DNA of 64,000 bases, taken from the NCBI RefSeq assembly GCF_038051945.1, contig NZ_CP150302.1, forward strand, positions 7,378,001 through 7,442,000, given 5' to 3'. Position numbers and translations under genes: made by a program. Source of the stretch: Paenibacillus sp. FSL H3-0469 (GTDB taxonomy: Bacteria > Bacillota > Bacilli > Paenibacillales > Paenibacillaceae). Under the pieces are notes generated by a model that was not told the DNA's origin, made no database searches, and saw only the letters and a list, made by a program, of their open reading frames with translations. Positions 51,013 to 57,612 of the stretch are shown in pieces (position 1 is the first letter of the stretch; every line of letters begins with the position of its first letter).

Positions 51013-51029
51013 GTTGAGGAGAGTAAATG

Positions 51030-51270
51030 AGAGGGATAAATTACATTAATGCAGCCCAAAGTCGGCCTGACGGGCGAATGAAAGGGATAAATCCCTTTGG
51101 TGGGGCTGGAAGTGGAGTAACTGGTGAAATGAAAGGGATAAATCCCCTTGGTGGGGCTGGAAGTAGAGTAAATGGTGAAATGAAAGGGATAAATCCCTTT
51201 GGTGGGGCTGGAAGTAGAGTAAATGGTGAAATGAGAGGGATAAATCCCTTTGGTGGGGCTGGGCTTGGGC
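51030..51270. repeat. Five palindromic boxes at exactly 51-nt period
   Basis: Boxes start at 51030 (degenerate), 51081, 51132, 51183 and 51234. The core is AAAGGGATAAATCCCTTT, a palindrome with 8-bp arms, followed by a conserved spacer reading GGTGGGGCTGGAAGTAGAGT. Because 51 is a multiple of three, frames stay open: on the plus strand 51027-51317 would encode a 17-residue repeat around MKGINPFGGAGSRV, with a fair GAGGAGAG in front. Two minus-strand frames are equally open, so coding is not established. Confidence 0.8.
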
Positions 51271-51313
51271 TAAAGGAGTGCCTGGATATGGTAGGTGCAG
51301 GCAAAATGAGTAA

Positions 51314-51404
51314 ATGAGGAGCACAAGTGCACTTGAATTTGCTAAAATACGGGCAAAACGAGCAAATGAGGAGCACTTGTGCAGCACAAGTGCTCCTCAT
51401 TTTT
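51314..51404. repeat. Palindromic-box repeat pair ending in a terminator-like hairpin
   Basis: ATGAGGAGCAC boxes begin at 51314 and 51366, 52 nt apart. The second forms a perfect 17-bp hairpin: ATGAGGAGCACTTGTGC (51366-51382) with its mirror (51384-51400), followed by TTTT. The unit contains CAAGTGCACTTGAATTTGC and CGGGC, related to the repeat at 5882-5997. It also lies next to the end of the convergent GH8 gene and could terminate transcription. Confidence 0.75.
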
Positions 51405-54639: not shown

Positions 54640-54689
54640 CTAGTCTACACTTACAACGACAATCTATATAACAAATGGAGGATGTTAGA

Positions 54690-56117
54690 ATGACACAACA
54701 ACAAGGATTCAACCCATATCTGCCTTCCTGGGAGTACGTGCCGGATGCGGAACCTTATGTTTTTGAAGGAAGAGTCTATGTCTATGGCTCGCACGACCGG
54801 TTCAACGGACATGCCTTCTGTCTGAACGACTATGTCTGCTGGTCAGCGCCGGAGGACAATCTGGGCGATTGGCAGTATGAAGGGGTGATCTACAAGACAA
54901 CAGATGACCCGCTCAACCCGGAAGGCAGCATGTGTCTCTATGCACCGGATGTGACACAGGGACCGGACGGGCGCTACTATCTCTACTATGTACTGGACAA
55001 GGTTTCTCTCGTATCGGTAGCGGTCTGCGATAAGCCGGGCGGCAAATATGAATTCTACGGCTATGTAACCTACGGGGACGGCACGCGTCTGGGCGAACGG
55101 GAAGGTGATGAGCCGCAGTTTGACCCGGGGGTATTGACCGAAGGCGACACCACGTACCTGTACACCGGCTTCTGCGGATATGGCGATAAGTCCAGGCACG
55201 GCGCGATGGCTACTGTACTCGGTCCCGATATGCTTACGATTATTGAAGAGCCTGTGTTCGTGGCACCGAGCCAGCCTTACAGCCAGGGAACCGGCTTCGA
55301 GGGCTATGAGTTCTTCGAGGCTCCTTCCATCCGCAAAAGAGGGGATATCTACTACCTGATCTATTCCTCCATTTCCATGCATGAGCTGTGTTATGCCACG
55401 AGCAGTCATCCTACCCGGGATTTTGTGTATCAGGGGGTCATTGTGAGCAACTGTGATCTGCATATTGATACGTATAAGCCAGCGGACCAGACGATGTATT
55501 ACGGCGGCAATAACCACGGCAGCATCGTGGAGATTCAGGGGCAGTGGTATATTTTCTATCACCGGCATACCAACGGAACCGCGTTCTCGCGCCAGGGCTG
55601 CATCGAGCCGATTACGTTCCGTGAAGACGGCACCATCCCGCAGGTGGAGATTACAACCTCCGGCCCGAACGGCGGCCCGCTGGAAGGACGCGGTGAATAT
55701 CCGGCTTATCTGGCCTGCCACCTGTTCACCAAGGATCAGGAGATGTACACTGGAGGCTTCGGCAAGGTGGGTGCCTGGATGGACAGCCGGTTCCCGAAAA
55801 TCACCCAGGACGGCAGAGACGGCGAAGAAGAGATGGGCTATATTGCCAATATGACGGAGTCGGCCACCGCCGGGTTCAAGTATTTTGACTGCAAGGGGGT
55901 TAGCCGGGTCTCCATTAAGGTGCGGGGATATTGCCATGGTGAGTTCCAGGTGAAGACGGCTTGGGACGGGCCTGCGCTTGCTTCTATTCCGGTAGGCTTC
56001 ACGAATGTCTGGAAAGAATATGCTGCGGACGTGGCGATTCCGGACGGCGTTCAGGCACTGTATTTCACGTATACCGGGGGCGGCGGCGCGCAGTTTGCTT
56101 CGTTTACGCTGGCTTAA
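54690..56117 (+). CDS. GH43 family glycosidase with C-terminal beta domain
   Basis: 475 residues, no signal peptide. The propeller begins NPYLPSWEYVPDAEPYVFEGRVYVYGSHD (D as base), with CLYAPDVTQGPDGRYYLYY and EGYEFFEAPSIRKRGDIYYLIY carrying the other conserved acids. A CBM6-like beta-sandwich follows at the C-terminus (residues about 340-475). The enzyme probably removes xylose or arabinose from oligosaccharides. GGAGG precedes ATG 54690. It follows the other GH43 gene by 50 bp, so they share an operon. Confidence 0.9.
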   Translation: MTQQQGFNPYLPSWEYVPDAEPYVFEGRVYVYGSHDRFNGHAFCLNDYVCWSAPEDNLGDWQYEGVIYKTTDDPLNPEGSMCLYAPDVTQGPDGRYYLYYVLDKVSLVSVAVCDKPGGKYEFYGYVTYGDGTRLGEREGDEPQFDPGVLTEGDTTYLYTGFCGYGDKSRHGAMATVLGPDMLTIIEEPVFVAPSQPYSQGTGFEGYEFFEAPSIRKRGDIYYLIYSSISMHELCYATSSHPTRDFVYQGVIVSNCDLHIDTYKPADQTMYYGGNNHGSIVEIQGQWYIFYHRHTNGTAFSRQGCIEPITFREDGTIPQVEITTSGPNGGPLEGRGEYPAYLACHLFTKDQEMYTGGFGKVGAWMDSRFPKITQDGRDGEEEMGYIANMTESATAGFKYFDCKGVSRVSIKVRGYCHGEFQVKTAWDGPALASIPVGFTNVWKEYAADVAIPDGVQALYFTYTGGGGAQFASFTLA

Positions 56118-56162: not shown

Positions 56163-56199
56163 CAGCAGCGCCCGAGAACTCTCTCAGGCGCTGCTGCTC
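56163..56199 (+). terminator. Terminator after the GH43 operon
   Basis: CAGCAGCGCC (56163-56172) pairs with GGCGCTGCTG (56187-56196). The T-run is weak (CTCTATTGG). Confidence 0.6.
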
Positions 56200-56297
56200 T
56201 ATTGGATGGAGGATAGTTAGTTGAAGACAGAGAGGGTTCCTCCTATTTGGCTCCACTCATTTGCAACTTATGCCTTAGCTCCAACATCTGAAGTAGT

Positions 56298-56480
56298 GCA
56301 CGGACACAGGTGCCGCTATTTTGTCCAAAAGTGTGATTATTCACGAGCTACGGACTCAGTGGACCTTAAATGGGCGATATGGAAGCCAAATAAGATAGAA
56401 ACAGTTAATTAACGGCCACTGAGTCCGTGAAAAGCTCATTTCTTCGGTTTTCAGGAATATAGCGGCATCTGAGTCCGCAT
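56298..56480. repeat. Large inverted repeat of palindromic boxes at 50-nt spacing
   Basis: Forward boxes ACGGAC begin at 56300 and 56350 (50 bp apart). Reverse boxes GAGTCCG begin at 56421 and 56471 (also 50 bp apart). The two ~70-bp arms are roughly mirror images with similar internal spacers, so the element could fold into one long hairpin. ACGGACTCAGTGG (56350-56362) pairs perfectly with CCACTGAGTCCGT (56416-56428). No gene is seen in this ~480-bp gap. Confidence 0.75.
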
Positions 56481-56599
56481 GGCTTGCAGCCAGGTGCAAG
56501 AAATCTCATGCCTAGTAATCTAGCTCGTACAGGGCGGAGCCTATTTGTTGTCCGCTCCCGCCCACACACACTAGATGGTAATGGAGTATGCCCCGGACA

Positions 56600-57493
56600 C
56601 TACACGCCGGAAGAATACCGTGCCTTGTACTCTGAGGGCGTCATGTTCATATAATGCTTGAACCACTTGGAGAAATAGCTGACATGCTGGTAGCCCGACT
56701 CCAGCGCAGCCTCCAGCACATTGTATGATCCGCTGCGGAGCAGACTGGCCGCCTGGCTGATGCGGATATAGTTCAGATACTCCATCGGGCGCATCCCCGT
56801 CTGAGCCTTGAAAAACTTGCAGAAATGCGAGCGGCTCAGCGCTACCACAGAGGCAAGCTGATCCAGCTCCAGCCGGTCGCGGGAATGGGTCTCCATATAG
56901 CTCAGCACCTCCCGGATCTGCCGGTTATATTCCCGGCCGTGCCGGGGTTCCGGCTCCGGGTTCAGTGCGGTCAGCCCGTATTGATAGCTGTCTGCAATGA
57001 ACAGCAGCAGGAGCGCCTTCAGGCTCATTTCGTATGCAGCAGATTGATGCTCATAGCGGCTTAACAGCTCTCTGATCAGCTGAAGCAACGGGGAGTGGGC
57101 GGCATCTGCGGCAGATAACATAGCAGGAAGCCGTATCTTCCCTTGCAGAACCGGGTCCAGGAACAGCTCCTGTACCCGGTCGGGCTGCGGTGAAGACAGC
57201 CAGGAACCTTTGAACACGATGGAATAATAACAGGTGCCGCCCATAGCGGTGTCCATACCCGAATGAAGCTCACCGGGGTGGACGATCAGGGCATCTCCAG
57301 CCTGAATGGCGAACTCGCGGCTCTCAATATGGAAGGTAGCCTTGCCTTCTGCCAGATAGATAATCTCCATTTCGTTATGCCAATGGACGGGAAGAATGGA
57401 ATGCACGCGGGCCTGATGCTCCACCCGGTAGATATGCAGGGGGAATTCCGGCTGGCCGTGCAGCTTGTTCTCCCGGTAACGGTGTTCGTACAT
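56600..57493 (-). CDS. AraC family transcriptional regulator
   Basis: 297 residues. Cupin N-terminal half with LPVHWHNEMEIIYLAEGKAT and IQAGDALIVHPGELHSG, and a C-terminal AraC domain (LELDQLASVVALSRSHFCKFFKAQTG, ALESGYQHVSYFSKWFKHYMNMTP). AGGAGG precedes ATG 57493; the frame to 57580 is not supported. Divergent from the GH31 gene at 57613, its probable target. Confidence 0.9.
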   Translation of the reverse strand: MYEHRYRENKLHGQPEFPLHIYRVEHQARVHSILPVHWHNEMEIIYLAEGKATFHIESREFAIQAGDALIVHPGELHSGMDTAMGGTCYYSIVFKGSWLSSPQPDRVQELFLDPVLQGKIRLPAMLSAADAAHSPLLQLIRELLSRYEHQSAAYEMSLKALLLLFIADSYQYGLTALNPEPEPRHGREYNRQIREVLSYMETHSRDRLELDQLASVVALSRSHFCKFFKAQTGMRPMEYLNYIRISQAASLLRSGSYNVLEAALESGYQHVSYFSKWFKHYMNMTPSEYKARYSSGV

Positions 57494-57612
57494 GATGTCC
57501 TCCTGTGAATCGCCATATTGTGTTGATATCGCGCAAATATATGCTAGATGAACCGGTACCAATAATAATATCATTATCATCAGAGGAAGTCATAAGGAAG
57601 GGTGGAACCATT

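Follow-up and report, generated by a model that had tools for sequence, protein, structure and literature searches.

Dispersed four-box palindromic repeats of Paenibacillus combine fixed box spacing with helically phased spacers

The window (the whole 64-kb stretch of DNA that was analyzed) contains a palindromic element of four boxes, situated between two convergent genes. The features of the element and of its neighbors are as follows.

54675-56117, + strand: left neighbor (context only), glycosyl hydrolase family 43 (GH43) gene (PF04616, E=9.8e-25)
56301-56477: whole four-box element, 177 bp, dyad at base 56389
56301-56318, + strand: outer forward box F1, CGGACACAGGTGCCGCTA, match to CGGACTCAGTGGCCGYTA
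56319-56350: left 32-bp spacer with AT blocks phased at 10 bp, at family columns 19-21, 27-30, 37-40 and 48-50
56351-56368, + strand: inner forward box F2, CGGACTCAGTGGACCTTA, match to CGGACTCAGTGGCCGYTA
56369-56409: 41-bp center with AT blocks at family columns 69-71 and 77-80 and one at the dyad (88-90)
56410-56427, - strand: inner reverse box R2, CGGACTCAGTGGCCGTTA, match to CGGACTCAGTGGCCGYTA
56428-56459: right 32-bp spacer, AT phasing symmetric
56460-56477, - strand: outer reverse box R1, CGGACTCAGATGCCGCTA, match to CGGACTCAGTGGCCGYTA
56600-57580, - strand: right neighbor (context only), convergent AraC-family regulator gene (PF12833, E=1.7e-21; PF02311, E=8.7e-16)

The 18-bp boxes (CGGACT-N9-YTA) are arranged as F1-50-F2-59-R2-50-R1, measured from start to start. 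This confirmed the two forward and two reverse boxes at 50-nt spacing that the first-pass annotation had described, with spacings of 50, 59 and 50; the core, however, measures 177 bp and not the 183 bp given there. When the 64-kb window was searched with CGGACTCAGTGGCCGYTA (up to three mismatches), four matches were found, all within the element, against 0.05 expected, and none of 100 shuffles reached four. The arms had also been said to mirror each other over about 70 bp. This was true of the boxes (16/18 and 16/18 identical positions) but not of the 32-bp spacers (12/32), and the element is thus a four-box palindrome rather than a continuous 70-bp inverted repeat. A terminator-like hairpin (CAGCAGCGCCCGAGA/TCTCAGGCGCTGCTG) lies at 56163-56196, downstream of the GH43 gene, and relatives carry a differing hairpin at this place.

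We searched for the boxes in the genome from which the window was taken (7.77 Mb, one contig). The single box gave 54 matches compared with 20 for the reversed control, the two-box pattern gave 61 compared with 19, and nearly every true box match belonged to a complete F-50-F-59-R-50-R layout. Of 100 Paenibacillus genomes, 45 contained a three-box pattern, as did 61 of 392 genomes of the order, with 0 matches for the control, and the fourth box, which was absent from the query, turned up at exactly 50. Strict detection yielded 271 distinct elements, 191 of which were exactly 50-59-50, and nearly all others were within 1 bp of this arrangement; the reversed-sequence control yielded 0. Single-box and two-box searches, which were not conditioned on four boxes, gave the identical layout. 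Further, only 4 of 484 F-F pairs lacked an R-R partner, indicating that the four-box unit is indivisible. A genome-wide box search had been set beforehand as the check on the spacing rule, and it revealed a family that is neither single-copy nor loose in its spacing: the rule holds genome-wide and genus-wide.

A model built on sequence only (E 1e-4) detected members in 77 of the 100 Paenibacillus genomes, with at least 27 scored candidates in many of them, and none in the other 23. It was also present in Cohnella and in a second family of the order. Among the matches listed from 84,980 species genomes, almost all were from Paenibacillus, Cohnella and Paenibacillaceae assemblies. Complete four-box copies were also seen in Alkalihalobacterium chitinilyticum and in one assembly labeled 'uncultured Bacillaceae' (L304 7709; L241 195; L243 1525), which, provided that they are labeled correctly, do not belong to Paenibacillaceae. 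The element had 0 matches in 2.9 million IMG/VR contigs, and a viral or phage origin of the family was rejected on this ground. Whole elements were tandemly duplicated locally every ~220-430 bp in genomes G000, G039 and G017 (loci L006 1450-2216, L191, L071, L190, L183 and L160). A search of the open-access literature returned no earlier description of the family.

The window holds two other repeats, at 51.0-51.4 kb (51021-51400), which turned out to be a single family of direct arrays with 51-bp spacing, a common spacer consensus and mixed arrays in which the palindromic core GGGATAAATCCC is swapped for GAGCACaaGTGC. Direct 51-bp arrays with the swapped palindromic cores AAAGGGATAAATCCC and GAGCACaaGTGC were observed in G000, G008, G059, G085, G046 and G067. 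In six genomes with a located dnaA, 148 of 148 matches pointed from origin to terminus, as did nine more in G000 that have the second type of core. On either replichore, each of these 157 two-box matches thus read 5'->3' in the origin-to-terminus direction. This polarity may reflect either a KOPS/SRS-like orientation or lagging-strand single-strand transposition. The arrays share with the four-box element a near-50-bp spacing and a partial 10-bp AT phasing, but they are direct and replication-polarized, whereas the four-box element is palindromic. Thus, of the proposal that all three repeats form one class, the near-50-bp spacing stood, while the other two belong to a separate direct-array family.

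We then compared divergent copies of the four-box element. Thirty-eight elements less than 58% identical aligned without gaps over 177 columns, and the conserved letters were CGGAC and the terminal TA of every box (18-bp consensus CGGACT[CG]A[AG]..GCC[CG]YTA). AT-rich blocks occupied family columns 17-21, 27-30, 37-40, 48-50, 67-71 and 77-80, with a further block at the dyad (88-90), and GC-rich blocks lay between them. The AT content of the spacers peaked at a period of 10.1 bp (bootstrap 10.05-10.10), with a phasing power of 2.1 compared with a maximum of 0.6 among shuffled profiles. AT content was 84% in phase and 36% out of phase in divergent copies (89% and 43% in the window copy), and it was higher in phase in 54 of 54 divergent copies. 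The phasing ended at the outer boxes, save for ~3 bases. Note that the elements were detected by box letters only, and the AT signal of the spacers was therefore not built in.

Spacer identity among divergent copies was.368, compared with.374 expected from column frequencies alone. Thus, no ancestral letters are left, and the spacers are saturated. In ortholog pairs, in-phase positions changed more slowly than out-of-phase positions; GC-to-AT mutation bias could partly account for this difference, and the argument therefore rests on the saturated spacers. Within the boxes, bases 7-10 showed strong neighbor dependence (mutual information), as expected for DNA-shape readout. A hairpin within the box was rejected, as the mutual information linked neighboring bases and not stem partners. 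We concluded that the element belongs to a large family of clade-specific repeats, as yet undescribed, in which selection acts on the geometry of the DNA.

An inverted repeat of this length might instead act as RNA or as a single-strand hairpin, either as a REP/ERIC-like transcript structure or as a bidirectional terminator. The elements are intergenic and near 3' ends, and the predicted fold of one copy (56288-56490) is very stable (-81.9 kcal/mol, z = -7.2). However, there was no F1:R1 covariation at variable box positions (z=0.4), and the RNAalifold covariation term was just -0.17. The stem was disrupted at most variable columns, being broken there in about half of the sequences, and helical phase, not base pairing, governs the conservation of the spacers. 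Rfam covariance models gave chance-level miRNA hits only, none of them on the element. F1:R1/F2:R2 cells were paired in 78.0% of cases compared with 75.4% in column shuffles, and the covariation score was also slightly higher; this slight excess probably stems from shared ancestry, which leaves a little room for a weak stem role of these box pairs. The hairpin reading was rejected by the pair-similarity, stem-counting and RNAalifold tests, and we regard it as very improbable.

REPs of Enterobacteria are palindromes of 20-40 bp with GTAG or CGTC tags, the GTAG type being tied to RAYT transposases (PMC3733652). The four-box family resembles REP and BIME-2 in that its members are dispersed intergenic repeats that favor 3' ends, for which a topological role has been proposed. 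In contrast to REP/BIME, its consensus has neither a GTAG/CGTC tag nor an internal stem, its hairpin is not conserved, and its constraint lies in the strict 50-59-50 spacing and the 10.1-bp phasing of the spacers.

The gene-pair context of the copies was convergent in 73, divergent in 28 and tandem in 107 cases (p=9e-6). The median distance was 251 bp to the nearest 5' end and 170 bp to the nearest 3' end, and the copies were spread evenly from origin to terminus. No recurrent neighbor gene was found across 244 copy contexts, and a gene partner for the element was rejected accordingly. Several specific boxes with dyad symmetry at an intergenic location would suit an operator or enhancer through which a transcription factor acts on neighboring genes, but such a site is hardly to be expected where divergent gene pairs are depleted relative to convergent ones, 5' ends are farther than 3' ends and neighboring gene families are not shared. 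We consider this reading very unlikely.

The first-pass annotation had suggested comparing positions to see whether the elements move. Copies were found at orthologous places of G000 in 7 of 8 cases in P. silagei and in 6 of 7 in P. piscarius (13/15 in total), and the identity of orthologous elements was mostly above that of their own 100-bp flanks. Thus, the family is mainly resident, the exceptions being a MITE-associated subfamily, described below, and the window copy. The latter was absent from its locus in P. silagei, G085, G059, P. piscarius and G037, and any given copy is therefore dispensable. The locus was empty in the close relatives, with blurred breakpoints. In contrast to these, the more distant species G030 has the window copy at the same place and in the same orientation with 73% identity, compared with at most 57% for unrelated copies. 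The window copy is thus atypical, being absent from close relatives and retained by one distant species, a distribution with which repeated loss and exchange by recombination are both compatible.

In G000, 13 copies form a subfamily that is enclosed by a 380-bp MITE whose inverted repeats are CTAG-ended (MITE loci with four-box cargo: L014, L019, L033-L036, L043, L044, L046, L058, L117, L120 and L126). This ~380-bp MITE, with ends like CTAG-TAnnGCATCAGATTTAAA, carries the four-box element as cargo, and we suspect an IS5-like CTAG target for it. At L011, L018 and L120, four-box copies are linked or broken up by another hairpin repeat (GGAAACGGCTTTGCCGTCCTTTTAAAGGACGG...AAACATATAA).

Some young amplified subfamilies, among them the one in the MITE, the dispersed and multiple copies and the lack of the window copy in close relatives are what would be seen if the element itself were MITE-like, its boxes being transposase sites and its copies being spread in trans by a transposase. 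Like bacterial MITEs (bcr1, RUP, NEMIS, ERIC), the element is a short, non-coding, dispersed inverted repeat, and one of its subfamilies is located inside a MITE. However, the homology of divergent copies outside the boxes stopped within ~3 bp, which speaks against a shared terminal repeat or a target duplication outside them; the outer boxes are inverted, yet homology stopped there without further terminal sequence, and no direct repeats were seen beside the outer boxes in the copies read by eye. Further, unlike MITEs, the general family keeps its positions between species and has four internal boxes at fixed spacing. Half-elements flanking a gene were not found, no neighbor gene was recurrent, and the phasing of the spacers survived sequence saturation. 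The boxes were also rejected as transposon ends, given the near absence of F-F pairs without an R-R partner. We therefore judge a MITE-like origin of the family to be unlikely.

The geometry of the boxes and AT blocks remained fixed although nearly all else changed, which suggests DNA wrapped around a putative protein. On the evidence of the sequences, we infer that the element is probably a resident, dyad-symmetric site in double-stranded DNA, of which ~177 bp would be wrapped around a putative symmetric multi-subunit protein. The four boxes (CGGACT...CSYTATTT), centered ~36 and ~86 bp on either side of the dyad, would be contacted at points that lie, in either arm, five turns of the helix from each other; their bases would be read in major grooves, and AT-rich minor grooves would face the putative protein every 10.1 bp. 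Nucleosome-positioning DNA has AT steps every ~10.1 bp. The element resembles it, by analogy only, in this period and in its near-nucleosomal length, and differs in its strict sequence-specific boxes. The fixed copies would probably help to organize or buffer local chromosome topology, and the convergent preference and the even spread from origin to terminus fit the kind of topological function that has been suggested for E. coli BIME-2.

DNA gyrase is a candidate for the wrapping protein, and the elements would then be strong gyrase sites and the local counterpart of BIME-2. In E. coli, gyrase is enriched at BIME-2 and recognizes a motif of 130 bp that is symmetric, varies in GC content with a period of 10.75 bp and has an aperiodic 36-bp center (PMC6379681). 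Both this motif and the element are long and symmetric with a helical-phase GC/AT variation that is read as wrapping, and the motif is the nearest described relative of the element in principle; the preference of the elements for gene 3' ends also accords with gyrase. However, the element has 177 bp and a period of 10.1 bp, with 0.3% of the peak power at 10.75 bp, its phasing continues through the dyad in place of an aperiodic core, and it has four strict and specific boxes whereas the gyrase motif is boxless. Further, a 4-bp staggered cut calls for a dyad between two bases, but that of the element coincides with a base. The occurrence of the element is patchy, and the 23 Paenibacillus genomes without it contrast with gyrase, which is essential in bacteria. 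Gyrase is therefore a rather improbable partner.

Old intergenic sites of this family number in the dozens to hundreds in Paenibacillus and related bacteria. The idea of a wrapping protein might be taken further: tentatively, Paenibacillaceae and relatives could possess a nucleosome-like particle in which a putative multi-subunit protein wraps DNA, is addressed by sequence to dozens or more fixed, dyad-symmetric four-box sites per chromosome and organizes supercoiling, which would be an undescribed clade-specific chromosome architecture. Even without the protein, a geometry kept strictly while the spacers are saturated is an uncommon mark of selection, and one that concerns DNA mechanics rather than sequence or RNA structure. 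If the wrapping is true, the family maps a DNA-wrapping complex of bacteria purely from sequence, and contact points, helical repeat and dyad would be readable from evolution alone at fixed orthologous sites, and the purpose of dispersed intergenic repeats would become directly testable in a tractable genus.
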